A DNA stretch of 64,000 bases from positions 62,001 to 126,000 of the forward strand of contig VWND01000038.1 in assembly GCA_009599575.1 (NCBI GenBank), read 5' to 3'. Origin of the DNA: Blumeriella jaapii. Lineage: Eukaryota > Ascomycota > Leotiomycetes > Helotiales > Drepanopezizaceae. Shown here one piece after another: positions 14,238 to 64,000 of the stretch. Made by a program: the position numbers and the translations under genes. Under the pieces are notes generated by a model that did not search any database, was not told where the DNA came from, and saw only the letters and a program-made list of their open reading frames with translations. Every line of letters begins with the position of its first letter. The first letter of the stretch is position 1.

Positions 14238-15102
14238 AAGCAAAGCGTTGCTAAATTTAATAAATTTATTTTTAATTTACTTTAAAACGAAATTATTATA
14301 CGCAATTTTTCCGAATTTAAGCAAGTATATAATATCGCTATTTTAAATTAACAAGTAGCTTTCGTAAAAATATTTATAAAATAATTCGATATAATAATTA
14401 AAAACGTTAACGAATTTTTATTCGATTACAAAGATTTCGTTAAAGCTAAATTCGTTCGCAAAAGTTTTAATTACGATAAGTTTTTGCTGAATTACGATAA
14501 CGTTTTAAAAATTTTCGCCGAAGCAAAAAAAGTCCGAAATAATAAAAAGAAAATAACAGACCGGGTTTTGCGCTTTTTGCTAAATTAATAAAAAAAAAAT
14601 ATTTAAAAATACGTTTTTAACAAAATCACCGGTGTTATTTTATTTCGGCATTTCGCTCGCTTTTTCGAAACTATTATTTTTACGAAAAAAAAAGTCTGGG
14701 TATTAAACGCTTATATTTTTAAAACGCAAGTTTTAAAAGCTAATAACCCAAAAGCTCGCAAATTTATAAGCTTTTTTACAGCTGTTTGCAAATTGGTCGA
14801 CGACGTTATATAATCGCTAAAAAAAATTTTAGTCGGCTGCGAAATTTTAAATTTGATTTTTTTTTAAAGCAAAAAACTAAGCGTCGCTAAATACGGCATT
14901 TTTATACCGAACGAAAAAAACGACGCTATTCCGATATTTTAAATTTACAACGACGAAAAAAACGAAAAAGCTAATATTATTTTCGTTTAATTCGAAAAAA
15001 TATACGCGGTAGCAATTAATATTTTTAAAACAGCTAAAATAATTCGACGATTTTTATTTTTAATTATCGAAAACGAATTCGAAAACGAAATTAAAAGCGT
15101 AA
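14238..15102 (+). pseudogene. Copy A ORF3, segment 1
   Basis: N-terminal part of the unknown ORF3, reading F-I-F-N-L-F-W-N-G-type sequence in the best copies, then V-N-E-F-L-F-D-Y-K and R-F-L-L-N. It is interrupted after GTAA at 15102 by copy B. The frame continues at 26379 on the far side of copy B, and the two join perfectly by comparison with copy B's own ORF3. Full description under copy B. Confidence 0.6.
15099..15102. repeat. Left TSD of copy B (GTAA)
   Basis: Repeated at 26379..26382. Uninterrupted copies read GTGA or GTAA here. Confidence 0.85.
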
Positions 15103-15369
15103 TATAAAACGGTGATACTTTGTATTAATAGGAGTTGGTAGTTTTAGCTATGGTTGAGGCATGGACCCTTCCGAGACCCCCTGCTATTGACTATTTTCAA
15201 CAGGTATAAGAGCAAGGTATTTTTTTAGATAGTATTATAAGCACGCAGTTCAATTTATATTTTTATTTATTTTTCTTTTTTTTTTTTTAGTTTTTTCTAG
15301 GGATTTCCTAGATTATTTTACTTATCGATATATGGCTGTATTAGTCTGGTTTTCCTATCTACTTTTATA
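15103..15369 (+). repeat. 5' LTR of copy B
   Basis: Starts TATAAAACGG (TGTAAAACGG with one G-to-A) and ends CTACTTTTATA. Contains the TATA-like GTATAAGAG near 15207. Confidence 0.93.
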
Positions 15370-15392: not shown

Positions 15393-15496
15393 AAATTTCG
15401 GTGTTTCGTTTTTATATATTCGCCGATGCATTTTTTAAAATTCATAATTAAAATCGATTTCGATATTTCGCTATTACGGCTTGAAAAACCTTTCAT

Positions 15497-15901: not shown

Positions 15902-16115
15902 TTTAATTAATTTACTAAAAAATAAGTTTTTTAATATATTACTTAAATATTTAAACGCAATTTTTATTTTATTTAATTCTTTTAAAAAACATAAAGACTT
16001 TTTTGATAGCTTTTTTATTAAAAACGATTTTTCTCACATTAAAAACCTATAACCCGCAATTCCAAAAAACACTTATTCGTTTAATTTAAACCCTACCAAT
16101 ATTTTCGCTAATATT

Positions 16116-17590: not shown

Positions 17591-17965
17591 ATATATATAT
17601 TGCTAATATAATTATCGCATTTGCAAATATTATAACTATATAATTAAGCTAGCGAATTACAAGAAAGCAAAATGCTTCTGTTATTCGCTAAACCAGCTGG
17701 TATAAAAAAAAACGTTAGAATCGAAAAGAAAAAAGATTTTGAAATTCGAAAAAAATCCGATAAAACTATTAAAAAAACGCTTATAATAGAAAAAATTAAC
17801 GACGATATAAAAAATGTCGACACCGATATTCCGATTTAAATTATTTAAAAAGTACCAGCTTTTAAGCGCTTATTATTAATGCGAAGCGAGAAATAAATCG
17901 ATAAATATATCAGCCCCGAAGCAGTCGACGAAATTATTAAAAAAATTATAAAACAAAAGATTGAA

Positions 17966-20900
17966 TTGAAATTCAGCGATTTATTTAGCACAAAAGAAAA
18001 ATTCGATAAAATTATTAATAAACAAATTTTTGTATTAAAAAAAAACGAAAAAATTAAGATTATCCGAAGAAAAAACGATTTTAAACTGGAAAAAAACCAA
18101 GAAAAAATTTATAATATTGCAATTAATTTAGCCGATAAAAAAGAAATTTTCGGAAAAAATTAACTTTTTGGCTCTCGCTATAAAAACCCAAAAATCAAAA
18201 CGACGAAACTGCCCTTATACGGCTATAAAAGCATTAAAAATAAAAATAATGCTTAAAAAAAGCACGACCGCCTTTGTTTTATTCGATAATAAAGCCGAAG
18301 TTAATTGCATAAATCAGGAAACGGCCGAAGCTAATAGTGTTTCGATTATTACCGATAAGCGAATAATTTATATTATCGTTAATAAAAATACGATTGAGTT
18401 TGATAGAATTATACGAAATGTAAAAATCGACGTTAAAAATATTATTATTTATAAAAACCTTTTAATAATAAAAAAATGCTTTTATTTTATTATTTTTAAA
18501 ATGCTCTGGATTTTAAAAAGTTTCGTCAGCTTTAAATACACCGAAAACGGCCAGATAAAAGCTTTCTTCTGAAACTGGAACCGATTTTTCCAAAGCCAAA
18601 TTATCGTCGCCGGCGATAAGGTTTTTTTAATCGACGTTTTATCGGAAAACGAATAATCGGTTTTAGTTTCAGAACAGACGCTGGATTGTAATAAAACTTG
18701 GAAAATACTTAGCTAAAAGCATTCGCGTTACTAATCGAAATAGTATCGCGAATAAAATTAATTAATATTAATATTTTTGATTATTAATTCGGAAATAAAA
18801 GTTTCGAAGATTTCGTTTTCGTATTAAATAAATCCGATTTATATATTTTATTTTTTTATATTAATATTAGCATTTTTTATAAGCGTAAAGCTGATAAAAT
18901 ACGATTCGTAAATCTTGGCGAATCCGATGGAAATATTTCCGAAAAAATAAACGATTGGTTCGAAAAAAACGAAGCAATAAAACCATTTCAATCAATTACT
19001 AGCGAATTCGAAGGATTTATTATCGGCCGATTTTTCAGTTTATTATTTAGCAGCCGATTTATAAAAAAACGATTTAATAATTTAGCAATCGGAATTTAAT
19101 TTTTATTAAAAAAAAAAAAAGTTTTATACGAAGTTTTACGCAACCGAAAAAAGGCTATAGCTTTCGATTTTACCGAAATAAGCTAATTCAGCTTTGACGT
19201 TACGTTTTATATCGATATTAAAACCGTGTTTTACGAAGCTTGGCAAAAAAAGACTTTTTTAGTTTTCAGAGCTTTTTAGGATAAAATAGTCGAAATGCTA
19301 AAAAAACGAATTAAGCAAAAGATTTTCGAATTTTGCCACGGCTTATATAAAAACAAATAGTTTATCGTTGCAAAAAAAAAAAAACATTTACAGATTTATT
19401 ATCGCAGTCGTCGAAATAAATAAAATAACGATACAAAACGCTAACGTGCTACCGAACGTCGATTAATTTTCGAACGAGTTCGCAAAACTAACGATCGCTT
19501 TTTTTTTCGATTTGTTTTCAGGCTACGACTATTTAATATTTGACCTACGATTTCGAAATATAATAATAATTTAAATTCCAATCGGTTTGCTGCGTATAAC
19601 GAGAATACTTATGAAAGTTATTAATTCAGTCGTTTAATTCGTAAAAGTCGTATATAAGGTTTTTATAATTTGCATTTCTGATATTGCTTTATTTTACGTT
19701 AACGACGTTGAAATAAAAGGCCCTAAATCATATTATAATAATAAAAAGATTTTTTTTGAAATTCGACGCTATATAATAAAATATATTTAAAATATCGATA
19801 AAATTATAATTTGTTTCGAAAAAGCCAAAACTATTATTAACCTTCGATTAAAATTTTATATATCCGAAATAAATATCGTTAGTTATATAACTGATAGCGC
19901 TGGCCGTTATTTTTAACGAAAAAAAATTAAAAAGATTTGCGAATAAAAAAAATATAAAAATATTATCGAAACCAAAGCTTTTATTAGCGTTATGATTTAT
20001 TATCGCAATTAAATTAAGAATTTTTTTTAAAAAGCTGCATTTATTTACGCTACGATAAAAAAAAGAATCGATTTCGTTTGGAAAAAAAAGCAGAGCAAAG
20101 CTATAAAAATTTTTAAAAACGATTTTTTATCAGTTTTATTATTTGTGCGGATCGATTATAATCCAAACGTAAAAAAAATCATTTTGATTATCGATGCTAA
20201 TATTTTCGATTGGAAAGTTGTATTATAATAAGTCGATAAAAATAAAAAACGGCATTTTTTACGATTCGAAAGCGGCTTATGGTTTTTCGCGAAAGCATGC
20301 TACGACGCAATTAAACGAAAATGTCGAAGCGTTTTTAAAATAATAAAAAAAATAAAAAGCGAATTGTACAGCGTATATTTTATTTTAAAAACAGACGCAA
20401 AAGTTTTTGTCGATTAATTAAACGAAAAAGCTAATAATTTATTAAAAGCGCTCGTTATTAATTAAATAACTTAGATGCGATTTATAAATTTCGAAATCAA
20501 GCATATTAAAAAAATAATTAATATAACGGTAAACGGCCTTTTCAAACGAAAACGTTTTTATTTATTTGATTTCGCTAAATAAAACGAATAAGATATTAAC
20601 GAATAAATTGCTAACGAAATCGGCTGTTTCGTTATTTACGCTTTGGATTTTACAGAGCCAAAACCATTCGCGTTATTATTCGGCTGGCATCGCGAGTAAA
20701 AAATATTAAATTTCGAATCGAAAAAGCATTCGCGTTATTATTTCGGCTGGCACCGCGAATAAATTTAACCGAAAACGATCGGAATAAACCGATTAACGAC
20801 GAAAATAAGCTTTTGATCGACAACTACGAAACCGAGAATTTTTATTTAATCGTATATTATTTAATTATTTTGTTTAAATTATTTAACGTATTAAATTATT

Positions 20901-22249
20901 AATTTAAATTATTTAAAAACCAAACTTTCGATTATATTTTAGCCGATAAAAAGCTGTATAAAATAAAAAATAATATATATTAAAAACGCTTAATAATAAA
21001 TAATAAAACTGATAAGTTTTAAATTATAAAAAAAGCTTACGAAAAAGTGTTTTATAAAAAAGCAGAAATTATTTATTACCGAATCAAAAACGATTTCTAA
21101 TAAAAAAAATGCTTCGAAAATTGCAAAACCTTCGTTAAAAGCTGTATTTTTTGCTAAAAACGAAAGCTTAGCCGAAAAAAAAACTTATTATATCCGACGT
21201 AGTTTTTTAAAATTTAAAAAAAAATTAATTTCGACGTTATACGCGTATTAATCACCGACCGCGGATATACGTGCTTCGTATTCGTTATCGACGATCTGTT
21301 TGAATAATCTGAAAAGCGATTTTTCCGAAACGCTATTTTCGAAATTATAACAATTTTTTTTTGAAAAAACGTTATATATCGATACGATTTGTTTAACAAA
21401 TTAAACGTCGATAATAAATCCGAAAATAAAAGCGTTATCGAAACTTTTATAAAAAAATACGGTATTTAGCGTATTTAAATTTTAGCCTATAATTCGAAAA
21501 ACAACGAATTCGTTAAACGAAGTTATAGAAATATTTTCGACGGCTTTTTAAAAATTATTCGAAAAAGTTATAAGCGTTAATCGCGGAAATTTTCGAAAAT
21601 GCTTTTTGTTATACGCATATATATATACGCTTTTATTAAAGTAATTTTATTTTTTATTTAATACGACAGAAACGCTCGACTGTTTTTAAAAATAAAATAA
21701 TTTGTATAAAAGTTTTATAACGTGGTTAAAATAAAAACGAAAACAAATTTGTTAGCAATAAGATTTAAACAGCTAAATTACCGCGATATAAATATAAAAA
21801 AAATAATTAAAAAAAAAAAAATATAAAAAGGCAGCTAAAAAAGTCTGAAATAAAACCAAGGTTTTAAAAAAAACGCTAATTAAAAAAGGAAATTTGGTTT
21901 TAGTTTACGACGTTTAGCGCGTTATTGATAAATTAGCCGATATTAAGCTTAATTATAAATGGCTCGGATTTTACGAAATATGCGAGGCCGAATTAAATAA
22001 AAGCTATTATAAATTTACGGAATTCGATAAAATAAAATTAAAAGGAACGTTCGCCGTTAACCGATTAAAGCGATTTTACAAAAGAAATTAGCAAATTTAT
22101 TTTTTGGATTTTGAATCAAAAAGCGATTCCGATTTTAGCGATTCCGACGACGATTCCGATTAAAACGATTATATTTTTAAAAAAAAGAAATTTTCTGAAA
22201 AGGTTTGGAAACAGCCGAATAACGATTTCGCTGCTGAAAGCACAATTTA
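17966..22249 (+). pseudogene. pol: Copy B pol: protease, RT, RNase H, integrase
   Basis: Protease at 17966-18590, split into two open pieces by a TAA at 18160. Its active site reads F-D-N-K-A-E-V-N-C-I near 18282 (ancestral D-S-G-A-E-V-N). RT about 18900-20040, with D-L-F-S-G-Y-type sequence and F-x-V-N-D-V near 19695. RNase H about 20140-20590. The RH-integrase linker (about 20650-20770) has two FALLFRLAPR-like repeats. The integrase finger ends in S-C-I-F-C, with both Cys kept here (near 21150), followed by the catalytic core. The tail has S-D-S-D-F-S-D-S-D-D-D-S-D (about 22110-22160). Standard Ty3/gypsy order with no chromodomain visible. Confidence 0.9.
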
Positions 22250-22259
22250 AGTCGTGATT

Positions 22260-22765
22260 TTATTTATGATCGAAAAGGAAAAAAGTGCATATAAAATTGT
22301 TTATTAATTGTTTTATTGTTTTTGTTGCCTATTATTTTTTTTTTTATTATATGCTGTTCTATTATTTTTGTTTTGATATATATTATTTATTTTTGAGATT
22401 TTTTTTTATATTGTTTAGAATATCTATTATACTTTTTTTTGTTTAACTGTACTTTTTGTTTATTAGAATAAAAGCTTTATATATGGTTGAGCCGCATATT
22501 TAATATATTTATATTGCTTATATATTTTACGAAAAACTATTTTTTATATATTTTATTATTTGCTACTTTTTGTACTGTTTATTTTTTTCGTTATTTTGAA
22601 CGGATGTCTGCTTAAATAATTATAATTTATTAGAAAAACAGCATGCGGACTTTCGTAACTTTTAAATACAAATATTTTATAATTTTCGTATTTTTTTTTA
22701 TTTATTTTTTAACAAATATAATACATTTTTTTAATTAATAAACCTATTAATATTATATTGTTTCC
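22260..22765 (+). other. T-rich spacer of copy B
   Basis: T-rich, no domain recognisable. An ATG at 22643 opens M-R-T-F-V-T-F-K-Y-K-Y-F, a short frame shared with copy D (ATG 53024). It could be an upstream exon or the real start of ORF3, but it is not in the same frame as ORF3 downstream. Confidence 0.45.
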
Positions 22766-22768
22766 TAA

Positions 22769-25700
22769 GCAAAGCGTTGTTAAATCTGGCAAATTTATTT
22801 TTAATTTATTTTGGAACGGAATTATTATACGTAACTTTTCCGAATTTAAGCAAATATATAATACCGCTATTTTAAATTAATAAGCAGCTTTCGTAAAAAT
22901 ATTTATAAAACAATTCGATATAATAATTGAAAACGTTAACGAATTTTTATTCGATTACAAAGGTTTTGTTAAAACTGAATTCGTTTATAAAAGTTTTAAT
23001 TACGATAAGTTTCTGCTAAATTACGATAACGTTTTAAAAGCTTTCGTCGGAACAAAAAAAGCTCGAAATAATAAAAAAGAAATAATAAACCGAGTTTTGC
23101 GCTTTTTGCTAAATCAACGAAGAAAAAATATTTAAAAATACGTTTTTAGTAAAATCACCGGTATTATTTTATTTCGGCATTTCGCTCGCTTTTTCGAAAT
23201 TATTACTTTTACAAAAAAAAAAAATTTGAATATTAAACGCTTATATTTTTAAAACGCAAGCTTTAAAAGCTAATAATTCAAAAGTCCGCAAGTTTATAAG
23301 CCTTTTTACTGCTGTTTGCAAACTGGTCGACGACGCTATGCAATCGCCAAAAAAAGTTTTAATTGGCTGCGAAATTTTAAATTTGATTTTTTTTTAAAAC
23401 AAAAAATTAAGCGTCGCTAAATGCGATATTTTTATACCGAAAGAAAAAAACGACGCTATTTCGATATTTTAAATTTACGACGACGAAAAAAACGAAAAAG
23501 CTAATATTATTTTCGTTTAGTTCGAAAAAATATACGCAGTAATAATTAATATTTTTAAAACGGCTAAAACAACTCGGCGATTTTTATTTTTAATTATCGA
23601 AAACGAATCCGAAAACGAAATTAAAAGCGTGATAGCAAACAATCGCTTATTCGAATATAAAAAATTTATTATATTTATAAAAACGATTCCGGAAAAAATA
23701 AAAATAAAAAACGTGGAAAAGCGCGCCGATATTTCCGAAACCTTTTTTGTTCGAAGGAAAAAACTATTCGCGTCGCTAATAAAAAAAGCACCGCGAGTAA
23801 AAACAGCCGGAAATCGACGCCGAATTATAGACTTTACGCCAGCCAACAGAAAACGCGACGATTTTACAAATTCAGATTTAAAAGATTTTAATATTTCGAA
23901 AAGGAAAAATCTAAACGATTTTAAATCTGATTTTTCGAAATTAAATACGCAAATATTAAAAACGCCCGCTGCGTTTAAAAACGTCGTACCACCACCGCTA
24001 ATACTTTAGATTCTGATAAAAATATTTAAAATCTCGACTATTGCACGCCTCGACCGAAAAGATTTAAAAGGAAATATCGAAGTTATTGCGGAAAAAATTA
24101 TATAAAAAGTATAAGATTAAATTATTTTATTTAAAACTTTCGCTTTCGACGACGAAACGATTTAAAAGTTTTATTTCGACACTTTTATATAAAAATCAAA
24201 TAAACCCGTCAGCTTTTTTTTTTTTGTTTCGAACGAAAATTAAATTAAGTTTTTTTCGGAAAATTGCAAATATAATACGCTAAAGCAAATAAAAAAGATT
24301 TTTAAAAACGGTGATCCGTTTTTATTCGAGTTTTTTTTCGTTAAGAAATTTCGATTTTTTAATTTCGTTTTTACGAATAACGTTAACGCTAAAAAAAACG
24401 GCAAGTTTTGTTATTTTTATATACGCTGTTACGCGGCGTATTGCGATTTAATTATAAAAAAAGTTAACGTTATCGATTTCGCTAATCGATTCGCTGTTAT
24501 TAAAAATTCGGATTACGATGTATTCGAAATTAATTTTAATAATTAATTTATATTCCGACGAAAAACTGCGAAAATTATTTAAGCGTATGCTAAGATTTAT
24601 TTGGGCTACGCAAATTTTAAAGCAGATTTTAAGATTTTTAGCGCGATTATAAAACTCGATTAAAACGTAGAAAAATGGAAGCAACGAATATTTCCAAAAG
24701 CCGATTTTTTTAGCTTTTCGACCGAAAGTATGCTTCGAAGTTTATTTAAATTAAATTGCGAATTCGTTAATTACGTAAGGTTTTATAACGGAGAAAATAA
24801 GCTATTGCTGCATTTTATAAAAAAAAAGATAATTATATATAAGTATTATTTCCGATTAATTAAAACTTAAAAAGCGCTTACAGCTTTTTTCGCTAATATA
24901 TTTTATAATTTTATTTAATAAGTTTTTAAAATGTATTCCGGCCTTTATTTCGCTGTTTTAATTATTCGAAATTTTGGAAACTGCCGCTTCGTGGCATATT
25001 TTAACGTTTCGATCGCTTTAGGTTTCGCTAGTTCCGATCGTATTACAATTATAAAATTCGATATCGCCGATTTTTAAAAAAAAAAAAAAATCGAAGATTT
25101 TACCGACGCTATTTTCGATTATTATATTTTGCTTATATTCGTATATAATTCGGAAATAATCGAAGCTTATTTGCAATTATACCACGACGCCAAGCTGATT
25201 AAAACTATTTAAAAAGGTTTAGTTTTTTCGTATTTTAGCGCGTTTAAAACAATGGCCTCGATTATTTTATCGGATTACGAAACCGAAAGCTACGGAATAA
25301 AAAATAAAATAATTTTCGTCAGTTTTTCGATTAAGCAAAAGGTTTTCGTCAGATTCAAAACCTAAAAAACCGACGGCGCAATACTAATTTGTTCGAATAA
25401 TTACACGGCGCAGAAATATAAAAATTATTTCGAAAACGACAATCCGATAAATAATCTGATATTGTTTATACTGCGGCGAAAGTAATTATAATATTTTCGG
25501 TGATTTCGGTTGCAAACGATTATTTCCGAACTATTTCGTAAAATAGTTTTTTTTACAGGTTTCGAAGCTTTTTCAAAAGCATTCGTCGGCAAACAACCGT
25601 AATCCGATTTATTAGTTTTACGCGAAGCAAAAGCGTTAATCGGTTTTAATTACGACGAATTAATCGATTATTTTCACGATTTTAATATAAGATTTTTCAG

Positions 25701-26010
25701 CGCTTTTTGCAAAGCGTAGAACCACGTTCAGAAATTGAAATTTATTATTTACGAAGAAAAATCGTGGAAAATATTCGTCGCCGCGACGCTTAATAATATT
25801 ATCGACGAAAAGGCTATTAAAACGTTCGTAAGTTTAAACGATATTTCGATTAATATTTTATCGAGCTATTTTTCAAAGGAGCAAAATAAATAAAAAAAAT
25901 TAAACGATAAGCGAGATATTATTTTTTCGCAGAAGCTAATAGCAAAAAGGCCAAAAACGGGTTAAAAAACCGAAGAAGTATGAAATTAAAAAGTTCGGTT
26001 TTTGATTAAT
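22769..26010 (+). pseudogene. Copy B ORF3: about 1,080-codon frame downstream of integrase, unknown
   Basis: A plus-strand frame running from about 22769 to about 26010, almost to the 3' LTR, in the place where some Ty3/gypsy elements carry an env-like gene. Blocks that recur in all copies: F-I-F-N-L-F-W-N-G, V-N-E-F-L-F-D-Y-K, F-R-H-F-A-R-F-F, Y-G-I-F-I-P, a basic K-T-A-G-N-R-R-R, N-V-N-A-K-K-N-G-K-F-C-Y-F-Y, R-C-Y-A-A-Y-C-D-L, F-D-I-A-D-F, I-L-S-D-Y-E-T-E-S-Y-G, and L-V-L-R-E-A-K-A-L-I-G-F-N-Y-D-E-L. Longest open pieces here are 23629-24009 and 24086-24283. Stops align with CAA/CAG/TGG in other copies (for example TAA at 24544 against CAG at 54916 in D). I see no signal peptide, membrane anchor or known domain, so env is not supported. 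Confidence 0.6.
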
Positions 26011-26111
26011 TAGTTTTTAAATTATATAAAATAAATTAGATTGCATTTATTAAAATTATGTTTTTTTTTGGTCGTAGTTAAAAACGATTACGTATATTGT
26101 TTGAGACAGGA

Positions 26112-26378
26112 TGTAAAACGGTGATATTTTATATTAATAAAAATTGGTAGTTTTAGCTATAGTTAAGGCATGGACTTTTTCGAAACCCTTTGCCACTGAC
26201 TATTTTCAACAGATATAAAAGCAAAGCATTTTTTTAAATAGTATTATAGGTACGCAGTTTAATTTATATTTTTATTTATTTTTTTTTTCCTTTCTTCAGT
26301 TTTTTCTAGGGATTCCCTAGACTATTTTACCCACCGATATATGGCTGTATCAGTCTGGTTTTCCTACCTATTTTTACA
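26112..26378 (+). repeat. 3' LTR of copy B
   Basis: Keeps TG...CA ends (TGTAAAACGG ... TATTTTTACA). Immediately followed by the TSD GTAA and the continuation of copy A. Confidence 0.94.
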
Positions 26379-27669
26379 GTAATAGCAAATAACCGTTTAT
26401 TCGAATACAAAAAACTTATTATATTTATAAAAACGATTTCGGAAAAAATAAAAATAAAAAACGTAAAAAAACGCGCCGATATTTTCGAAACTTTTTTTAT
26501 TCGAAAAAGAAAATTATTCACGTCGTTAACAAAAAAGGCACCGCGAATAAAAACAGCCGGAAATCGACGCCGAATTATAGCTTTTAAATTAATTAATAAA
26601 AAACGCGACGATTTTACGAAATCAGATTTAAAAAACGCCGGTATTACGAAAAAAAAAAATTCAAACGATTTTAAATCTGATTTTTCGAAATTAAATACGC
26701 AAATATCAGAAACGCTTATTGCGTTTAAAAACGTCGTATTATTACTGCTAATATTTTAAATTTTAATAAAAGCATTTAAAATCTCGATTATTATACGTTT
26801 CGACCGAAAAAGCTTAGAAAAAAATATCGAAATTATCGCGGAAAAAATTATATAAAAAATACAAAATCAAATTATTTTGCTTAAAACTTTCGTTTTCGAC
26901 GACGAAACGATTTAAAAGTTTTATTTCGATATTTTTATATAAAAATTAAATAAATCCGTCAGCTTTTTTTTTTTTTTTGTTTCGAACGAAAAAAACTAAA
27001 CTAAGCTTTTTTTCGAAAAATTGCAAATGTAATACGCTAAAGCAAATAAAAAAAACCTTTGAAAACGGTAATCCGTTTTTATTCGAGCTTTTTTTTGCTG
27101 AAAAACTTCGATTTTTTAATTTCGTTTTTACGAATAACGTTAACGCTAAAAAAAACGGTAAATTCTGCTATTTTTACGTACGCTGTTACGCGGCGTATTA
27201 CGATTTGATTATAAAAAGAATTAATATTATCGGCTTCGCTAATCGATTCGCTATTATTAAAAATTCGGATTACGACGTGTTCGAAATTAATTTTAATAAT
27301 TAATTTATATTTCGACGAAAATTTGCGAAAACTATTTAAATACGTATTAAAATTTATTTAGGTTACGTAAATTTCAAAGCAAATTTTAAAGCTTTTAGCG
27401 CGATTATAAAACTCGATTAAAACGTAAAAAAATAGAAGCAACGAATATTTCCAAAAGCCGATTTTTTTGATTTTTCGACCGAAAGTGTATTTTAAAATCT
27501 ATTTGAATTAAATTACGAATTCGTTAATTACGTAAGGTTTTATAACGGAAAAAACAAATTATTATTGTATTTTATAAAAAAAAAATAGTTATATATAAGT
27601 ATTATTTCCGATTAATTAAAACCCAAAAAGCGCTTACAGTTTTTTTCGCTAATATATTTTACAGTTTTA
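26379..27669 (+). pseudogene. Copy A ORF3, segment 2
   Basis: Resumes copy A's ORF3 right after copy B. The longest open piece, 26977-27303, includes the N-V-N-A-K-K-N-G-K-F-C-Y-F-Y and R-C-Y-A-A-Y-Y-D-L blocks. The TAA at 27301 is CAG in copy D (54916). It is interrupted by LINE-1 after TATTTTACAGTTTTA at 27655..27669. Confidence 0.6.
27655..27669. repeat. Left TSD of LINE-1, 15 bp
   Basis: TATTTTACAGTTTTA, repeated exactly at 34023..34037. Long duplications of variable length are typical of target-primed reverse transcription. Confidence 0.92.
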
Positions 27670-27699
27670 CATCCTTTATAATATACACGAATTCTACTT

Positions 27700-29250
27700 T
27701 TTGTTCGCAATAATTAATAAATTCATTGCATTCGATTCGGAAAACTCGTTTTTTTTCGAATCTCGAGAAATCAGCTCGAAAGCTCGTCGCGTTCGTCGTA
27801 CAGCTCGCGAAATAATTCTTTTTATTTTTTTTCGGTCGTCCGACGACCACGATCACGACCACGACCACGACGAATTATATATTCGTTTTATAAACGCAAT
27901 CTTACCGTTTTAATTAAACCTGCATTTTAAAAAAAAAAAGCAGGCGAATGTTTTTAGCATTCGCTTTTTTTCTTTCGTTTTAAAATACGAAGCGCGAATA
28001 TTTATTATTACAACGTCGGCTATTATTAATCAGCTCGACGAAGCAGACCGATAATCCTAAATACGCCGCAAAATATAAGCATAATTCGCGACCGCTGCCG
28101 ACAACGTCGTAAACTAGCAAAAAAAGCCCGAAGCGCGATAATACGCCGAAAAACTTGCAAAAAGCTTTATTTTTTTTTTGCAAATCCGCGCTTTTATCAC
28201 TTTTTTCGCCGCTTCGTCAAATAGCATCGATCTTTTTTTTTTTTTTGCTAAATTAATTATTTAAATAAACCGAATTTTACGAAAAATCTTAAAAACTTTA
28301 ATAAATTTCGAGAAATTAAAATCGATTATTATTAAAAAATTATAATAACAAACGCGTTCGTTTATCAGCGAAACTTTACGCGTTTTTTTAAATTCGTTCA
28401 CCGAAAACCAATTAGCAAAAGTTCGATAAGATTATCGTTTATTAATTACGTCGGCGAAAAGCATTTTGCTAAATAAATTTAATACTTTTGTTTTTAAATA
28501 AAAAATCGCGAAATTTATACCGGGCCTAACGAAAAAAACGCGATTAAAAACCTGACGCTTATAAAAACAAATTGAGCTTTTTATTTAATCGATTTAAAAA
28601 TTAAAGATTTTTTTATTATTTAAAAAAGCGTCGAAATCTTTTGCAAAATATTCGAAGCCACCGCCGTACGCATTTCGGAGAAATAATACAATTACGCGGT
28701 ACAAAACGTTCCAGCCACGGTTTCGAAATTATTCGGCGACGTTTTCTACTGCTTAAAATATATAAAAAACGAAGTTTTTATTTAAATTAAAATTAAACCG
28801 ATTAATACGCGCTTTTTTCGATACGAAACGAATTTAATTATAAGCAAATAAATCTGAATTTTTTTTTTTTTTTATAATTAATTAAAAGTTTTACTTTTTT
28901 CGGCGTTAGCGCTTAGGCCAAACTTATTAATAAAAAAACCGGCCATACTTCGCCACGATTTTAAATGCTAAAGCTTTTGCAATTTATTAATTTGCATCCG
29001 ACACGTTCGTTGCAATTATTATAATAACCGAATATAAAATTACGATAATCCGACTGGTTTTAATTGCAAAACAGCTTTATAATACGCGAATTGCTATAAA
29101 TTATACGCTGCGAATTATTTATACTGCTTTGCGGCTTTTCGCCGCGTAAATAATAAAATAATACGACCAATTAAAAAGAAATTAAAAACTGTTCGGCGAT
29201 TAAAAAAAGCGGCTTATTCGGTCGCGGTCATTTTTTTTTATTATTAAAAC
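27700..29250 (+). pseudogene. LINE-1 ORF1 (Gag-like RNA-binding protein)
   Basis: The first piece, 27701-27913, is open for 70 codons with a basic K-A-R-R-V-R-R-T-A-R-E segment and a D-H-D-H-D-H-D-H-D-E repeat from a GACCAC-type microsatellite (about 27841-27872). Near 29083-29128 the frame reads Y-A-N-C-Y-K-L-Y-A-A-N-Y-L-Y-C, the RIP form of the CANCxGxHAANxxxC knuckle (Y for C or H by G-to-A and C-to-T). The middle is broken by stops and frame-ambiguous. The role by family is RNA binding in the retrotransposition particle. The N-terminus is lost by 5' truncation. Confidence 0.65.
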
Positions 29251-29639
29251 TTTTATTTTTTTAAATAATAATAATCCGGTTTTTAATAACGCGGGCCGAA
29301 AAAAAAAAAACGCGGAAACGCTATAACGATATATAAATAAAAAACTATCGCGTTTTTAATTATTATTTCCGCCGCGGCTATAACGTCGAACGTGATTTTT
29401 TCGGGCCGTTTAATCCGAAATTCAGTTTTAAAACAATCGTTAAATATTTAATATTTTGGCCGAAAAATATATTCGATTTTCGACGATACGGCTTTCGTAG
29501 CTTTTTCGCAAAATATATTTTTTTTTATTCCGTTAAAAGCAATTTATTCGTTTTTATCGAATCAGCTACGAAATAAATCCTAAATTTTCGCAAACAAATT
29601 AAAAAAAATAAATATTAATATTAATATTTTTACTTTTTA

Positions 29640-34022: not shown

Positions 34023-34037
34023 TATTTTACAGTTTTA
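34023..34037. repeat. Right TSD of LINE-1, 15 bp
   Basis: TATTTTACAGTTTTA, identical to 27655..27669; copy A resumes here. Confidence 0.92.
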
Positions 34038-34167
34038 TTTAATAAACGCTTAGAATATATTCCGGTTTTTATTTCGCTGCTTTAATTATTCGGAATCTTA
34101 GAAACTGCCGCTTCGTAGCATATTTTAACGTTCCGATCGCTTTAAGTTTCGCTGGCTCCGATCGTAT
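34038..34167 (+). pseudogene. Copy A ORF3, segment 3
   Basis: A short stretch of ORF3 between LINE-1 and copy C, equal to copy B about 24914-25050 (F-G-N-C-R-F-V-A-Y-F-N-V-type block). It is cut at the GTAT duplication by copy C. Confidence 0.65.
34164..34167. repeat. Left TSD of copy C (GTAT)
   Basis: Repeated at 56766..56769, after which copy A continues in register. Confidence 0.88.
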
Positions 34168-34433
34168 TGTAAAACGGTGATACCTTGTATTAATAGGAGT
34201 TGGTAGTTTTAGCTATAGTCGAGGCATGGACCCCTCCGAAACCCCCTGCCACTGACTACTTTTAACAGATATAAGAGCAAAGTATCCTTTTAAATAGTAT
34301 TATAAATACGCAGTTTAATTTATACCTTTATTTATTTTTTTTTTCTTTTTTCAGTTTTTTCTAGGGATTTCCTAGACCATTTTATTTACCGATATATGGC
34401 CGTATTAATTTGGTTTTTTTATTTATTTTTACA
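34168..34433 (+). repeat. 5' LTR of copy C
   Basis: Keeps TG...CA ends. It is among the least mutated LTRs of the window, whereas copy C's 3' LTR is heavily altered. Confidence 0.93.
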
Positions 34434-41857: not shown

Positions 41858-44800
41858 TTAAGCAAGGCGTCGCCAAATCCGGCAAACTTATTTTTAATTT
41901 ATTTTAGAACGAAACTATTATACGCAATTTTTTCGAATTTAAATAAGCATATAATACCGCTATTTCAGATTAACAAACAGCTTTCGTAAAAACATTTATA
42001 AAGCAATTCGATATAATAATTAAAAACGTTAACGAATTTTTATTCGATTATAAAAATTTCGTTAAAATTAAATTCGTTCGCAAAAATTTTAATTACGATA
42101 AGTTTTTGCTAAATTACGATAACGTTTTAAAAGCTTTCGCCGAAGCAAAAAAAGTTCGAAATAATAAAAAAAAAATAACAGACCGGGTTTTGCGCTTTTT
42201 ATTAAATCAACGAAAAAAAAATATTTAAAAATACGTTTTTAGCAAAATCACCGGTATTATTTTATTTCGGTATTTCGTTCGTTTTTTCGAAATTATTATT
42301 TTTATTAAAAAAAAAATCTAAGTATTAAACGTTTATATTTTTAAAACGCAAGCTCTGAAAGTTAATAATTCAAAAGTCCGCAAATTTATAAGCTTTTTTA
42401 CAATTGTTTGCAAATTAATCGACGACGTTATGCAATTGTTAAAAAAAGTTTTAATCGGCTGCGAAATCTTAAATTTAATTTTTTTTTAAAATAAAAAATT
42501 AAGCGTCGTTAAATACGGCATTTTTATACCGAAGAAAAAAAACGACGCTATTCCGATATTTTAAATTTACGACGACGAAAAAAACAAAAAAGCTAATATT
42601 ATTTTCGTTTAATTCGAAAAAATATACGCGGTAGCAATTAATATTTTTAAAATAGCTAAAATATTTTAGCGATTTTTATTTTTAATTATCGAAAACGAAT
42701 CCGAAAACGAAATTAAAAGCGTAATAATAAATAACCGCTTATTCGAATATAAAAAATTTATTATATTTGTAAAAACGATTCCGGAAAAAATAAAAGCAAA
42801 AAACGAAAAAAAGCGCGCCGATATTTTTAAAACTTTTTTTATTCGGAAAAGAAAATTATTTACGTCGTTAATAAAAAAAGCATCGCGAATAAAAACAGCC
42901 GGAAATCGACGCCGAGCTATAGCTTTTAAATTAATTAATAAAAAACGCGACGATTTTACGAAATCAGATTTAAAAAACGCCGGCATCGCGAAAAAAAAGA
43001 ATTTAAACGATTTTAAATTTGATTTTTCGAAATTAAATACGCAAATATTAAAAACGCTTGCTGCGTTTAAAAACGTCGTATTATTACCGCTAATATTTCA
43101 GATTTTAATAAAAGCATTTAAAATTTCGATTATTATACGTTTCGACCGAAAAGATTTAAAAAAAAATATCGAAATTATCGCGAAAGAAATTATATAAAAA
43201 ATATAAAATTAAATTATTTTATTTAAAACTTTCGCTTTCGATAACGAAACGATTTAGAAATTTTATTTCGATATTTTTATATAAAAATTAAATAAATCCG
43301 TTAATTTTTTTTTTTTTATTTCGAATAAAAATTAAATTAAGCTTTTTTCGGAAAATTGCAAATGTAATACGCTAAAGCAAATAAAAAAAACTTTTGAAAA
43401 CGATGACCCGTTTTTATTCGAGTTTTTTTTCGTTGAAAAACTCCGATTTTTTAATTTCGTTTTTACGAATAACGTTAACGCTAAAAAAAACGGCAAATTC
43501 TGTTATTTTTACGTACGCTGTTACGCGGCGTATTGCGATTTAATTATAAAAAAAATTAACGTTATCGATTTCGCTAATCGATTCGCTGTTATTAAAAATT
43601 CGGATTACGACGTATTCGAAATTAATTTTAATAATTAATTTAAATTCCGGCGAAAAACTGCGAAAACTATTTAAGCGCGTGCTAAAGCTTATTTAAGCTA
43701 CGCAAATTTTAAAGCAAACCTTAAAGCTTTTAGCGCGATTATAAAACTCGATTAAAACGTAAAAAAATAAAAATAATAAGTATTTTTTAAAACCGATTTT
43801 TTTGGCTTTTCGACCGAAAGTATATTTTAAAATTTATTTAAATTAAATTGCGAATTCGTTAATTACGTAAAGTTTTATAACGGAGAAAACAAGCTATTGC
43901 TGCATTTTATAAAAAAAAAAATAGCTATATATAAGTATTATTTCCGATTGGTTAAAACCCAAAAAGCGTTTACAGCTTTTTTCGTTAATATATTTTACAA
44001 TTTTATTTAATAAGTTTTTAAAATATATTCCGGCTTTTATTTCGCTGTTTTAATTATCCGAAATTTTGGAAACTGCCGCTTCGTAGCATATTTTAACGTT
44101 CCGATCGCTTTAGATTTCGCTGGTCCCGACCGTATTACGGTTATAAAATTCGATATCGCCGATTTTTAAAAAAAAAAAAAATCGAAGATTTTATCGACGT
44201 TATTTTCGATTATTACGTTTTGCTTATATTTATATACAATTCGAAAATAATCGAAATTTATCTGCAATTATACTACGACGCTAAGCTAATTAAAACCATT
44301 TAAAAAAGCCCAGCTTTTTCGTATTTCAGCGCGTTTAAAATAATAGCCTCGGCTATTTTATCGGACTACGAAACCGAAAGCTACGAAATAAAAAATAAAA
44401 TAATTTTTATTAGCTTTTCGACTAAGCAAAAGGTTTTCGATTTAGAATCTAAAAAACCGACGGCGCGATATTAATTTATTCGAATAATTATACGGCGTAA
44501 AAATACAAAAACTATTTCGAAAACGACGCTCCGATAGGCCATCTGATATTATTTATATTGCGACGAAAGTAATTATAATATTTTCGGTAGTTTCGATTGC
44601 AAACAATTATTTTCGAACTATTTCGTAAAATAGTTTTTTTTATAAGCTTCGGAGCTTTTTTAAAAGCATTCGTCGGTAAACAATCGTAATCCGATCTATT
44701 AGTTTTACGCGAAGCAAAAACGTTAATCGGTTTTAATTACGACGAACTAATCGATTATTTTTACGATTTTAATATAAAACTTTTCAGCGCTTTTTACAAA

Positions 44801-45095
44801 GCGTAAAACCACGTACAAAAACTAAAATCTATTATTTACGAAAAAAAGTCGTAGAAAGCATTTGTCGCGGCGATATCTGATAATATTATCGACGAAAAAG
44901 CTATTAAAACGTTCGTAGATTTAAACGATACTTCGATTAACATTTTATTAAGCTATTTTTTAAAAAAGTAAAATAAACAAAATAATTCAAACGATAAGCG
45001 AAACGCTATTTTTTCGCAGAAGCCAATAGCAAAAAGGCTAAAAACGGGTTAAAAAACCGAAAAAGTATAAGGTTAAAAAGTTTGATTTATAATTA
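41858..45095 (+). pseudogene. Copy C ORF3
   Basis: Same frame and blocks as copy B's ORF3, uninterrupted by insertions. It keeps some codons lost elsewhere (for example TTT CAG ATT near 41965) and has stops at positions that are Gln or Trp in other copies. Length about 1,080 codons, ending just before the 3' LTR. Confidence 0.58.
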
Positions 45096-45198
45096 ATTAG
45101 TTTTTAAATTATATAAAATAGACTAGATTGTATTTATTAAAATTATGTTTTTTTTTGGTCGTAATCAAAAACGATTACGTATATTATTTAAAACAAAA

Positions 45199-53146: not shown

Positions 53147-56100
53147 TAAACAAAGCGTTGTTAAACCTAGCAAGTTTATTTTTAATTTATTTTGGAACGG
53201 AATTATTATACGCAATTTCTTCGAATTTAAGCAAGCATATAATGCCGTTATTTCAAATTAATAAGCAGCTTTCGTAAAAACATTTATAAAACAATTCGAT
53301 ATAATAACTGAAAACGTTAACGAATTTCTATTCGACTATAAAAACTTTGTTAAAATTAAATTCGTTCGCAAAAGCTTTGATTACGATAAATTTCTGCTGA
53401 ATTACGATAACGTTTTAAAAGCTTTCGCCGAAGCAAAGAAAACTCGAAATAATAAAAAGGAAATAATAAACCGAATATTACGCTTTCTATTAAATCAACG
53501 AAAAAAAGATATTTAAAAATACGTTTTTAATAAAATTACCGGTGTTATTTTATTTCGGCATTTCGCTCGCTTTTTCGAAACTATTATATTTATTAAAAAA
53601 AAAGTCTGGGTATTAAACGCTTATATTTTTAAAACGTAAGTTTTAAAAGCTAATAATTTAAAAATCCGCAGATTTACAAGCTTTTTTATAGCTATTTACA
53701 AACTGATCGACGACGCTATACAATTGTTAAAAAAAATTTTAATCGGCTGCGAAACCTTAAATCTGACTTTTTTTTAAAGCAAAAAACTAAGCGTCGCTAA
53801 ATACGGCATTTTTATACCGAACGAAAAAAACGACGTTATTCCGATATTTCAGATTTACGACGACGAAAAAAACGAAAAAACTAATATTATTTTCGTTTAA
53901 TTCGAAAAGATATACGTTATAATAATTAATATTTTTAAAGCGGCTAAAACAGCTCGGCGATTTTTATTTTTAATTATCGAAAACGAATCCGAAAACGAAA
54001 TCAAAAGCGTGATAGCAAATAACCGCTTATTCGAATACAAAGAATTTATTATATTTATAAAAACAATTCCGAAAAAAATAAAAACAAAAAACGTAAAAGC
54101 GCGCCGATATTTTCGAAACTTTTTTTGTTCGAAAAAAAAAATTATTTACGTCGCTAACAGAAAAAGCATCGCGAATAAAAACAGCCGGAAATCGACGCCG
54201 AATTATAAGTTTTAAGTTAATTAATAAAAAACGCGACGATTTTATAAAATCGGATTTAAAAAACGTCGGCATTTCGAAAAAAAAAGATTTAAACGATTTT
54301 GAATTTGATTTTTCGAAATTAAATACGCAAATATCAAAAACGCTTACTGCGTTTAAAAACGTCGTATCGCTAATATTTTAGATTTTAATAAAAGTATTTA
54401 AAATTTCGATTATTATACGATTCGATCGAAAAAGCTTGAAAAAAAATATCGAAGTTATCGCGGGAAAAATTATATAAAAAGCATAAAATTAAATTAAATT
54501 GTTTAAAACTTTCGTTTTCGACGACGAAACGATTTAAAAATTTTATTTCGATACTTTTATATAAAAATCAAATAAATCCGTTAATTTTTTTCTTTTTGCT
54601 TCGAACGAAAACTAAATCAAGCTTTTTTCGGAAAATTGCAAATATAACACGCCGGAATAAATAAAAAAGATTTTTAAAAACGATAATCCGTTTTTATTCG
54701 AGTTTTTTTTCGCTAAGAAATTTCGATTTTTTAATTTCGTTTTTACAAATAACGTTAACGTTAAAAAAAACGGCAAATTCTGTTATTTTTACGTACGCTG
54801 TTACGCGGCGTATTACGATTTAATTACAAAAAAAATCGACGTTGTCGGCTTCGCTAATCGATTCGCTGTTATTAAAAATTCGGATTACGACGTGTTCGAA
54901 ATTGATTTTAATAATCAGTTTATATTTCGACGAAAAACTGCGAAAACTATTTAAGCGCGTGCTAAAGCTTATTTGGGCTACGCAAATTTTAAAACAGACT
55001 TTAAGATATTTAACGCGATTATAAAATTCGATTAAAACGTAAAAAAATAAAAGCAACGAGTATTTCCAAAAGCCGACTTTTTTAGCTTTTCGACCGAAAT
55101 ATATTTTAAAATTTATTTAAATTAAATTGCGAATTCGTTAATTACGTAAAATTTCATAACGGAAAAAATAAGCTATTGCTGTATTTTATAAAAAAAAACA
55201 TAGTTATATATAAGTATTATTTCCGATTAATTAAAATCTAAAAAGCGCCTATAGTTTTTTTCGCTAATATATTTTATAATTTTATTTAATAAGCTTTTAA
55301 AATACATCCCGGCCTTTATTTCGCTGTTTTAATTATTCGAAACTTTGAAAACTGCCGTTTCGTAGCATATTTTAACGTTTCGATCGCTTTAGGTTTCGTT
55401 AGTTCCGATCGTATTACGATTATAAAATTCGATATCGCCGATTTTTAAAAAAAAAAAAAAATCGAAGATTTTACCGACGTTATTTTTGATTATTACGTTT
55501 TATTTGCATTTGTATATAATTCGAGAATAATCGAAGCTTATTTACAATTATATTACGACGCCAAGCTGATTAAAATCATTTAGAAAAGCCCAGCTTTTTC
55601 GTATTTTAGCGCGTTTAAAATAATAGCCTCGGCTATTTTATCGGACTACGAAACCGAAGGCTACGGAATAGAAAATAAAATGATTTTTGTTAGCTTTTCG
55701 ATTAAGCAAAAGGTTTTCGTCAGATTCAGGACTTAAAAAACCGACGGCGTAATATTAGTTTATTCGAACAATTATACGGCGCAAAAGTATAAAAACTATT
55801 TCGAAAATAATAATCCGATAAGCAATTTAATATTATTTGTATTGCGGCGAAAGCAATTATAATATTTTCGGTGGTTTCGATTGCAAACGATTATTTCCGA
55901 ATTATTTCGTGAAATAATTTTTTTTACAGGCTTCGGAGCTTTTTTAAAAGCATTCGTCGGTAAATAACCGTAGTCCGATTTATTAGTTTTACGCGAAGCA
56001 AAAGCGTTAATCGGTTTTAATTACGACGAATTAATCGATTATTTTTACGATTTTAATACAAGACTTTTCAGCGCTTTTTACAAAGCGTAAAACTACGTTT

Positions 56101-56370
56101 AAAAGCTGGAATTTATTATTTACGGAGAAAAATCGTAAAAAGCATCCGTTTCGGCGGCGTTTGATAATATTATCGACGAAAAAGCTATTAAAACGTTCGT
56201 AAATTTAAACGATATTTCGACTGACATTTTATCGAGCCACTTTTTAAAAAAGCAAAATAAACAAAATGATTCAAACGATAAGCGAAACGCTATTTTTTCG
56301 CAGAAGCCAACGGCAAAAAGGCTAAAAACGAATTAAAAAAATCGAAAAAATATAAAGCTAAAGAATTCGG
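53147..56370 (+). pseudogene. Copy D ORF3
   Basis: Best copy for reading ORF3: CAG at 54916 confirms Gln where A and B have TAA. Blocks are as in copy B, including F-D-Y-D-K-F-L-L-N-Y-D-N-V-L near 53385 and, near 55980-56045, L-V-L-R-E-A-K-A-L-I-G-F-N-Y-D-E-L. It is collinear over its whole length with copies B and C apart from small indels. The function is unrecognised. An antisense frame (54820-55056) is also open in B and E, but the sense frame is the one whose stops RIP explains. Confidence 0.6.
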
Positions 56371-56483
56371 TTTTTGATTAATTGGTTTTTAAATTATATA
56401 AAATAAACTAGATTGCATTTATTAGAATTATGTTTTTTTTTAGTCGTAATTAAAAACGATTACGTATATTATTTAAAACAGGA

Positions 56484-56765: not shown

Positions 56766-56769
56766 GTAT

Positions 56770-57735
56770 TATAATTATAAAATTCGATATCGCCGATTTT
56801 TAAAAAAAAAAAAATTCGAAGATTTTACCGACGCTATTTTCGATTATTACGTTTTGCTTGCATTCGTATATAACTCGGGAATAATCGAAACTTATTTGCA
56901 ATTATATTACGACGCCAAATTAATTAAAATTATTTAAAAAAGCTTAGCTTTTTTGTATTTTAGCGCGTTTAAAATAATAACTTCGGCTATTTTATCGAAT
57001 TACGAAACCGAAAGCTACGGAATAAAAAATAAAATAACTTTTATCAGCTTTTCGATTAAACAAAAGGTTTTCGTTAAATTTAAAATTTAAAAAATCGACG
57101 GCGCGATGCTAATTTATTCGAATAATTATACGGCGCAAAAATACAAAAATCATTTCGAAAACGATAATCCGATAAGCAATTTAATATTATTTGTATTACG
57201 ACGAAAGCAATTATAATATTTTCGATAATTTCGATTACAAACGATTATTTTAAAATTATTTCGTAAAATAATTTTTTTTACAAACTTCGGAGCCTTTTCA
57301 AAAGCATTCGTCGGCAAATAACCGTAGTCGACCTATTAGTTTTACGCGAAGCAAAAGCGTTAATCGGTTTTAATTACGACGAATTAATCGATTATTTCCA
57401 CGATTTTAATATAAGATTTTTTAGCGCTTTTTATAAAGCGTAAAATTACGTTTAAAAGCTGAAATTTATTATTTACGCAGAAAAGTCGTGGAAAATATTC
57501 GTCGCGGCGATATTTAATAATATTATCGACGAAAAAATTATCAGAACGTTCGTAAATTTAAACGATATTTCGACTGATATTTTATCGAGCTATTTTTTAA
57601 AAAAGCAGAATAAACAAAATAATTCGAACGATAAGCGAAACGCTATTTCTTCGCAAAAGCTAATAGCAAAAAGGCCAAAAATAGGTTAGAAAACCAAAAA
57701 AATATAAAGTTAAGAAATTCGGTTTTTTAATTAAT
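56770..57735 (+). pseudogene. Copy A ORF3, segment 4 (C-terminal part)
   Basis: Final third of copy A's ORF3. The piece before 56937 is open with F-T-D-A-I-F-D-Y-Y-V-L-L-A-F-V-Y-N-S-G. The L-V-L-R-E-A-K-A-L-I-G-F-N-Y-D-E-L block is at about 57335-57390. It ends about 100 bp before the 3' LTR. Confidence 0.6.
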
Positions 57736-57836
57736 TAGTTTTTAAATTATATAAAATAAACTAAATTATATTTATTAAAATTATGTTTTTTTTTGGTCGT
57801 AATTAAAAACGATTACGTATATTATTTAAAACAAAA

Positions 57837-58104
57837 TATAAAACGGTAATATTTTATATTAATAAAAGTTGGTAGTTTTAGTTATAGTCGAAGCATAGAT
57901 TTTTTCGAAACCTTTTGCTATTGATTATTTTTAACAAATATAAAAGCAAAGCACTTTTTTAAATAATATTATAAGCACGCATTTTAATTTATACCTTTAT
58001 TTATTTATTTTTTTTCTTTTTTCAGTCTTTTTTAGGGATTTCCTAGATTATTTTACCCACCGACATGTGGCCGTATCAGTCTGGTTTTCCTACCTACTTT
58101 TATA
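57837..58104 (+). repeat. 3' LTR of copy A
   Basis: The most mutated of the eight family-1 LTRs belonging to copies A-D. Followed by TSD TTAT (58105..58108) and the rest of LINE-2. Confidence 0.92.
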
Positions 58105-58930
58105 TTATTATAGCTTTTTAGCGGTGGTCGATTTTAATTTTTCGAAATTTATTAAAATTTTTAAAATTTTTCGTAAAATTCGGTCTGCTTAAATAACTGA
58201 TTTAGCAAAAAAAAAAAAAAAAGTCGATGCTGCCTGGCGAAGCGGCGAAAAAAATAATAAAAGCGCGGATTTGCAAAAAAAAAATAAAGCTTTTTGTAAG
58301 CTTTTCGGCGTATTAACGCGCTTCGGACTTTTTCTGCTAATTCACGACGCTGTCGGCAGCGATCGCGAATTATACTTATATTTTGCGGCGTATTTAAAAC
58401 TGTCGGTCTGTTTCGTCGAGCTGATTAATAATAGCCGACGTTGCAATAATAAATGTTCGCGCTTCGTATTTTAAAACGAAAAAAAAAAAAAAAAAACGAA
58501 TACTAAAAATATTCACCTGCTTTTTTCTTTTAAAATGCAAATTCAGTTAAAACGGTAAAATTGCGTTTATAAAACAAATATATAATTCGTCGTGGTCGTA
58601 GTCGTGGTCGTCGAACGACCGAAAAAAAATAAAAAAAATCATTTCGCGAGCTGCACGGCGAACGCGACGAGCTTTCGAATTAATTCCTCGAAATTCGAAA
58701 AAAAACGAATCTCCCGAATCGAATGCAATAAATTTAATGATTGTTGCGAACAAAAAGTAGAATCCGTATATATTATGAAGGATGCGAATTTGTCGTATAT
58801 TAATACCGAAAGTCGAGTTAATCTGGCTTGATAGTCGGCCAAGGTAGAAACAGGAGTAAAAGGGGTGGCAGGAGCCTTATGTCGACTAGTAATAGCTTTA
58901 ATTAAATTCCGCGTACACGTATCGAGGCTG
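58105..58930 (-). mobile_element. LINE-2, part 2 (5' part of ORF1)
   Basis: Reverse complement of LINE-1 27670 to about 28350, as far as about 58784. It then extends beyond LINE-1's truncated 5' end. On the minus strand the frame at 58639-58842 stays open and continues upstream through a Pro/Thr/Ala-rich stretch (A-P-A-T-P-F-T-P-V-S-T-L-A-D-Y-Q) to about 58925. The acidic D-H-D-Y-D-H-D-E repeat is at 58585-58615. From about 58815 outwards the sequence is hardly mutated. No ATG is visible at the upstream end of this frame, so the ORF1 start is unresolved. Confidence 0.75.
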
Positions 58931-63208: not shown

Positions 63209-63811
63209 GGCGTTTTTTAAGTTTTAACCAGTCGAAAATAATATTTATATATAATTTTTTTTATTTTATAAAATGCAACAGTAATTTATTTTTTCCGTTG
63301 TACGACCTTATGTAATTAACGAATTCGCAGCTTAATTCAAATAAATTTTAAAATATATTTTCGGTCGAAAAGCCAAAAAAGTCGGCTTTTAGGAATATTC
63401 GTTGTTTTTATTTTTTTTTGTTTTAATCGAGCTTTATAATCTCGTTAAAAGCTTTAAAATCTGTTTTAAAATTTACGTAGCCCAAATAAATTTTAATATA
63501 CGTATTAATAGTTTTCGCAATTTTTCGTCGAAATATAAATTAATTATTAAAATCAATTTCGAACACGTCGTAATCCGAATTTCTGATAGCAGCGAATCGA
63601 TTAGCGAAATCGATAACGTCGATTTTTTTTATAATTAAATCGTAATACGCCGCGTAACAGCGTACGTAAAAATAATAGAATTTGCCGTTTTTTTTGGCGT
63701 TAACGTTATTTGTAAAAACGAAATTAAAAAATCGAAGTTTTTCAACGAAAAAAAGCTCGAGCAAAAACGGATTATCGTTTTTAAAAGTTTTTTTTATTTG
63801 CTTTAGCGTAT
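63209..63811 (-). pseudogene. Copy E: fragment of ORF3 from a minus-strand family-1 element
   Basis: Reverse complement of copy B about 24270-24860. The sense piece 63540-63764 reads L-E-L-F-F-V-E-K-L-R-F-F-N-F and N-V-N-A-K-K-N-G-K-F-Y-Y-F-Y. Bounded left by G2 and right by the LTR of element F. This fifth copy of the ORF3 region has the same frame as A-D. Confidence 0.8.
63808..63811. repeat. TSD of element F, one side (GTAT)
   Basis: The 4 bp directly outside the LTR end, in sequence that is contiguous in copy B. The partner is beyond the window. Confidence 0.6.
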
Positions 63812-64000
63812 TATAAAAGTAGGTAGGAAAACCAGACTGATACGGCCATATGTCGGTGGGTAAAATAGTCTAGGGAATCCCTAGAAAAGACTGAAAAAAG
63901 AAAAAGAAAAATAAATGAAAGTATGAATTGGAATGCGTGCTTATGGTACTATTTAAAAGAATGCTTTACTTTTATACCTATTAAAAATAATTAATAGCAA
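63812..64000 (-). mobile_element. Element F: 3' LTR (189 bp) of another minus-strand family-1 element
   Basis: Starts TATAAAAGTAGGTAGGAAAA, the reverse complement of the family-1 LTR end, and runs off the right edge. Well preserved (GTATCAGTCTGG region intact on the minus strand). The element is inserted in copy E in the same orientation. Confidence 0.9.

Follow-up and report, generated by a model that had tools for sequence, protein, structure and literature searches.

In plant long terminal repeat (LTR) retrotransposons, the place between pol and the 3' LTR is the most frequent one for additional open reading frames (ORFs), which may be in the sense or antisense orientation (PMC7264820). 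For example, Retand of plants carries antisense TRP28 ORFs in that place (PMC11963269). In the Boty-like elements of Botrytis, the additional gene brtn is also antisense (PMC8365987). In Cer1 of C. elegans, a non-Env ORF in the same place contributes to CERV, a nuclear regulator made by splicing; this product has 517 residues, includes gag-frame exons, and is needed for export of the genomic RNA of the element (PMC10309623). Here, we describe ORF3, a sense ORF located between the integrase-like region and the 3' LTR of a Ty3-like element of approximately 11.3 kb. The element lies in a stretch of 64,000 nucleotides (the window), which corresponds to positions 62,001 to 126,000 of contig C38 of assembly G000 (47.37 Mb, 91 contigs). 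A conserved and constrained additional ORF is present between pol and the 3' LTR in this Ty3-like family.

The ORF3 segment, 3.2 kb in length, was found at 22,769-26,010 in copy A, at 41,862-45,097 in copy B, and at 53,151-56,382 in copy C. In the genome, the family was represented by at least 47 DNA matches (some of them fragments) and at least 43 protein matches, both lower bounds from the best candidates scored. Stops were present in all 43 protein matches of ORF3, with 21 to 41 in the matched frame of each, and none of the 43 copies was open. For the comparison, we used 37 copies (A, B, C, and 34 further loci, three of them partial) whose alignments covered 2,500 columns or more; L001 and L009, which are copy A itself, were excluded, as were L014 and L018, which duplicate the positions of L003 and L005, and shorter matches. 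The segment was collinear in A, B, and C and across the 37 copies (in a few of them in part), and the same flanking element sequence lay beside it in the copies examined. A preliminary description of this DNA had reported the collinear segment in copies A to D and partly in a copy E; its E is part of D and not a separate copy.

The copies differed almost only by transitions; in ORF3, 356 transitions and 18 transversions separated A and B. The TpA/ApT and (CpA+TpG)/(ApC+GpT) ratios of copy A were 1.0 and 0.59 for ORF3 and 0.99 and 0.74 for gag-pol, which we take to be values typical of repeat-induced point mutation (RIP). RIP produces transitions, and the transversions among copies are therefore nearly free of it. 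When the 37 copies were read in one sense frame, the transversion-variable columns at codon positions 1, 2, and 3 numbered 2, 1, and 14 over 22,770-23,212 and 23, 18, and 75 over 23,215-25,960. The total over 22,770-25,960 was 25/19/89 (chi-square of 67.9; p = 1.8e-15), and the third position led in 10 of the 11 ORF3 blocks of about 100 codons. The spacer upstream showed no bias by phase (19/24/22 over 22,300-22,700; p = 0.75), and on the 3' side the columns were 7/5/7 over 25,963-26,400. For variants present in at least two copies, the counts (third position first) were 27/5/11 over 23,084-25,963 versus 6/13/11 in the spacer. The transversion density at positions 1 and 2 was about 21 per kb in ORF3 versus about 95 to 160 per kb in the spacer, a range that depends on the alignment. 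In the pol control (12 copies, 144 columns), phase bias was observed in several 400-base blocks and other blocks were mixed; the phase shifted along copy A, in keeping with frameshifts in the copies.

Thus, past purifying selection on the sense frame of ORF3 is supported because the transversions are specific to the codon position, and the same evidence supports the earlier proposal of a real, element-borne protein of unknown type. The comparison of copies establishes that ORF3 was coding and constrained, that it occupies its place after the integrase-like region in the sense orientation, and that it has decayed. The transversion test is also a simple way of showing coding in repeats destroyed by RIP, without reconstruction.

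The distribution of stops was examined in the same frame. Copies A, B, and C contained 39, 45, and 50 stops in their best sense frame versus 51 to 103, 55 to 113, and 60 to 87, respectively, in the other five. Over 22,770-25,960, the composite sense frame had 60 columns with a stop in at least one copy, and in 55 of these another copy had a sense codon that is turned into that stop by C-to-T or G-to-A. This agrees with the preliminary description, which had found stops of one frame to be sense codons in other copies; the TAA at 24,544 is present. In the other five frames over 22,700-26,010, 16 to 58 columns were stop in every copy, and the uncorrected phase-1 frame of copy A had 11 such columns. 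The coding phase of copy A shifts near 23.21 kb, where 29 of the 36 other copies differ from it in length. A frame from 22,771 had been assigned to copy A; it is coding only from about 23.21 kb, and the coding frame upstream starts at 22,770. One phase was kept at all checkpoints in 15 of the 37 copies (L035 without the first checkpoint), and the other 22 shifted phase at least once. From the equivalent of 22,770 to the shared stop, the length was exactly 3,189 nucleotides in nine one-phase copies, 3,195 in four, and 3,201 in one.

The constrained stretch extended from about 22,755 to 25,965, and the transversion periodicity was absent on both sides. No transversion-variable column was found in 22,754-22,839, with six or more just upstream. 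The size first given for ORF3 (about 1,080 codons at 22,769-26,010) was close to the present one of about 1,065 codons, and its limits were not those of the constrained stretch. Beyond four internal columns with fixed stops, the next shared stop is at 25,963, in all 35 copies that cover it. Between 22,713 and 23,081, an in-frame ATG was absent from all 36 copies examined; either every copy has lost its start, or splicing supplied it. In the spacer of about 0.5 kb, each of the three sense frames has columns that are stop in at least 80% of copies. Simple read-through from pol into ORF3 is unlikely with these stops in all three sense frames, and therefore, ORF3 would have needed its own entry. 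Such entry may have been by a spliced or subgenomic message, in which case a separate message would be involved, or by re-initiation.

The features of copy A, which extends from about 15,103 to 26,378, are as follows.

15103..15369, + strand, 5' LTR; 86% identical to 26,111-26,376, with the ends and the flanking repeat read directly
17802..20432, + strand, pol region; reverse transcriptase (RT)-RNase H match at about 19,284-20,432
21011..22270, + strand, integrase-like region; weak Pfam matches, right end placed by eye
22271..22754, + strand, T-rich spacer with no coding signal; each of the three sense frames contains stops
22755..25965, + strand, ORF3; about 1,065 codons, phase 0 to about 23,212 and then phase 1
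26111..26378, + strand, 3' LTR; DNA match to the 5' LTR, ends read directly

The two LTRs are about 266 bases each, and GTAA, read directly on both sides, forms the target duplication. The gag region was seen only by eye. The best PDB matches of pol were the Ty3 RT/RNase H chain 4ol8 (E = 7e-7) and the Ty3 Gag-Pol 7q5b (E = 2.4e-6), and the sole further match up to an E value of 1 was an unrelated channel (E = 0.66). In Pfam, RT_RNaseH was matched by pol of copy A above the family cut-off (E = 2.1e-6). Integrase was weakly supported by matches below the cut-off. For Integrase_H2C2, the E values were 0.024 (copy A), 0.017 (copy C), and 8.4e-4 (L043), and for the integrase core rva_4 they were 0.002 (copy B), 0.018 (copy C), and 0.009 (L039). 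In several copies, the domain order was the expected one of RNase H, the integrase zinc-binding domain, and then the core. The family is a Ty3/gypsy LTR retrotransposon, with RT-RNase H followed by integrase, closest similarity to Ty3, two LTRs, and a short target duplication.

The other ORF3 sequences of the window are listed below.

41862..45097, + strand, ORF3 segment of copy B; 88% identical to copy A
53151..56382, + strand, ORF3 segment of copy C; 88% identical to copy A
14240..15102, + strand, ORF3 of copy D, piece 1; DNA match to copy A
26379..27669, + strand, ORF3 of copy D, piece 2; resumes past the insertion of A
34023..34168, + strand, ORF3 of copy D, piece 3; resumes past the insert at 27,670-34,022
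56766..58110, + strand, ORF3 end and 3' LTR of copy D (the earlier E); past the insertion of B with C
63210..63815, - strand, ORF3 fragment of a further copy; antisense, DNA match

Copy D is thus composed of the collinear pieces 6,565-15,102, 26,379-27,669, 34,023-34,168, and 56,766-58,110. In the coordinates of copy A, its ORF3 pieces run, in order, up to 23,640 and then over 23,629-24,913, 24,899-25,044, and 25,040-26,010. Three insertions split it, namely, copy A, a 6.35-kb insert (overlap of 15 bases), and copy B (overlap of 5 bases); C apparently sits inside the 3' LTR of B. The preliminary description had placed four of five nested insertions in ORF3; instead, there are three, all into ORF3 of this one copy, which is too few for claiming an insertion preference for ORF3.

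Within the 6.35-kb insert (27,670-34,022), the first 0.7 kb matches 58,105-58,784 reversed and the middle matches 2,885-6,572 reversed; no Pfam match was obtained for three reverse-strand frames of 28,340-32,034. A direct repeat is formed by 1-2885 and 60330-63209 (90.5% identical), and the antisense ORF3 fragment directly follows its second copy. At 58100-60399 on the - strand, a reverse transcriptase was matched (PF00078, RVT_1; E = 2.7e-16) in a stretch whose guanine-plus-cytosine (GC) content of 0.375 is above that of the rest of the window; it is possibly a less mutated non-LTR element.

The GC content of the 2-kb blocks of the window was 22 to 32%, with one block at 39%, and the host is presumably a RIP-competent fungus. 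Elsewhere in the assembly, the DNA methylase family PF00145 was matched at three loci (C67:526531, C2:488008, and C7:1396222). An ORF at C2:488008 matched the DNA repair protein Rad8 (PDB 7r76; E = 1.1e-24), which we take to be a DNMT5-type enzyme, and one at C7:1396222 matched the cytosine-specific methyltransferase 8yf3 (E = 5.2e-5). As judged from these matches, the three loci would fit a genome with RIP-type or maintenance methylases.

Relatives of ORF3 were sought in several collections. There was no Pfam match for one frame of copy A, three of B, and two of C; among 14 ORF3 copies, the only Pfam match was Sid-5 in one copy (E = 1.5), taken as chance, whereas damaged pol was found in Pfam at E values of 1e-7 to 0.02. 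No match was obtained for A, B, and C in PHROGs or for B and C in NCBIfam, where damaged pol was also blank. A profile of the 14 copies had no match in PDB, and within the window it found only ORF3 copies besides a chance-level match (E = 5.3). Among 5.8 billion proteins, neither copy A nor the 14-copy alignment found a relative; this says little, because the equally damaged RT-RNase H control gave only three hits (20 to 22% identity). No ORF3 relative was found in viral contigs or in bacterial and archaeal genome contigs. Because damaged pol did find its relatives in PDB, ORF3 is unlikely to be a close relative of a solved structure, although it may contain a known domain in divergent form. 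AlphaFold2 gave the 14-copy ORF3 a mean predicted local distance difference test score of 26, which is uninformative because the RT-RNase H control, of known fold, also scored low (35.9, with 3 copies in the alignment).

Some features of the protein could still be read. Residues 301-360 of L003 form a basic stretch (21 K+R and 2 D+E), a weak signal in that RIP inflates lysine. Residues 301-400 have more transversions at positions 1 and 2 (7 and 4), and the indels near 23,866-23,990 are mostly multiples of three. This region resembles a variable, basic linker, which suggests that it lies between two larger domains.

Tentatively, and with somewhat less than even confidence, we interpret ORF3 as an accessory protein that would act on the RNA, cDNA, or silencing of the element itself, as CERV does, and that would be neither an envelope nor a replication enzyme. 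Its product would have a nuclear role like that of CERV for Cer1, and by analogy we regard such an accessory function, or else protection against silencing, as the most likely one. It is rather unlikely that ORF3 represents a novel family of very large fungal retrotransposon proteins that are nuclear, act for example in RNA export or against RIP or small-RNA silencing, and have no cellular relative. Elements of this kind are known to gain additional ORFs by gene capture, and ORF3 has the size of a host protein. However, no host relative was present among the best 43 of 1,588 candidates, all of which were family copies (a divergent host gene would be hidden), and we consider a captured gene that keeps its host function, such as a nucleic-acid-binding or regulatory protein, to be unlikely as well. 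An envelope-like gene, as in errantiviruses, would suit the position after pol and the apparent need for its own entry, and the 19-residue window of highest hydropathy begins at residues 405-407 in 11 of the 14 copies and at residue 129 in the other 3, with means of 1.35 to 2.36. However, the soluble RT-RNase H, similarly damaged, reached 1.88 to 2.03 in all three copies, which places such values at the background level of RIP damage; in the best ORF3 windows, 2 to 4 residues are charged or stops; and values within the first 60 residues reach only 0.57 to 1.05, with no signal-peptide-like start. An envelope is thus improbable, and the earlier statement that env is not supported holds in a weak form only, since the hydrophobic stretches of ORF3 are no stronger than those of damaged RT-RNase H and hydropathy cannot decide.

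Two further alternatives concern the frame itself. Genes on the antisense strand, like brtn or the TRP28 ORFs, are known in comparable elements (PMC8365987, PMC11963269), but over 22,700-26,010 the antisense frame whose third positions match the transversion bias has 24 columns that are stop in every copy and 16 more that are stop in at least 90%, compared with 4 fixed columns in the sense composite over 22,770-25,960; such a gene is highly improbable. From the 39 stops in the earlier-noted frame of copy A and from the four fixed stop columns, one could argue for noncoding DNA or for an unrelated second element that had nested in an ancestor. This reading is scarcely credible in view of the strong transversion periodicity, the low rate at positions 1 and 2, and the 15 of 37 copies that stay in a single phase throughout about 3.19 kb. 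Several observations do weigh against a coding ORF3 of the proposed kind. Stops are fixed in every copy at 4 of the 60 columns, two with mixed stop codons, as RIP would leave, and two with TAA throughout, and one further column fits neither class. The preliminary description had named stops beyond C-to-T and G-to-A as evidence against the frame; by the columns of the observed copies, the frame is not refuted, and these five columns are unproven. Codons 501-600 lack periodicity (2/2/2), only 24 of 36 copies still have the last G of the acceptor-like TAAG that precedes 22,770, and the moderately hydrophobic stretch from residues 405-407 is recurrent. Finally, no homologue, domain, or fold was found across the searches above, in which blanks are weak evidence.

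The extra genes of LTR retrotransposons are a place to find element-borne regulators or anti-silencing factors. CERV, a characterized example in the position of ORF3, revealed an unexpected RNA-export mechanism (PMC10309623). With over 1,000 codons that selection preserved in an element whose host genome is heavily mutated, ORF3 is a candidate for such a regulator or anti-silencing factor.

Among the described systems, yeast Ty3 shares with the present family the order of RT-RNase H followed by integrase and supplied the best PDB matches of pol. Ty3 ends after integrase. Cer1, which also belongs to Ty3/gypsy, has its additional ORF in the same place as ORF3 and with the same apparent need for its own entry. 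The CERV product (517 residues, with gag-frame exons) differs from ORF3, and the two are likened by position. The additional ORFs of plants, including TRP28, occupy the same place, but they are from plants and not fungi, those of Retand are antisense, and no shared domain was found. In literature judged from titles and the openings of abstracts, no fungal Ty3/gypsy element with a comparable sense ORF was recognized. brtn is, like ORF3, an extra gene of a fungal LTR retrotransposon, with brtn antisense and ORF3 sense. ORF3 is set apart by its sense orientation, its presumed fungal host, and its length of more than 1,000 codons.
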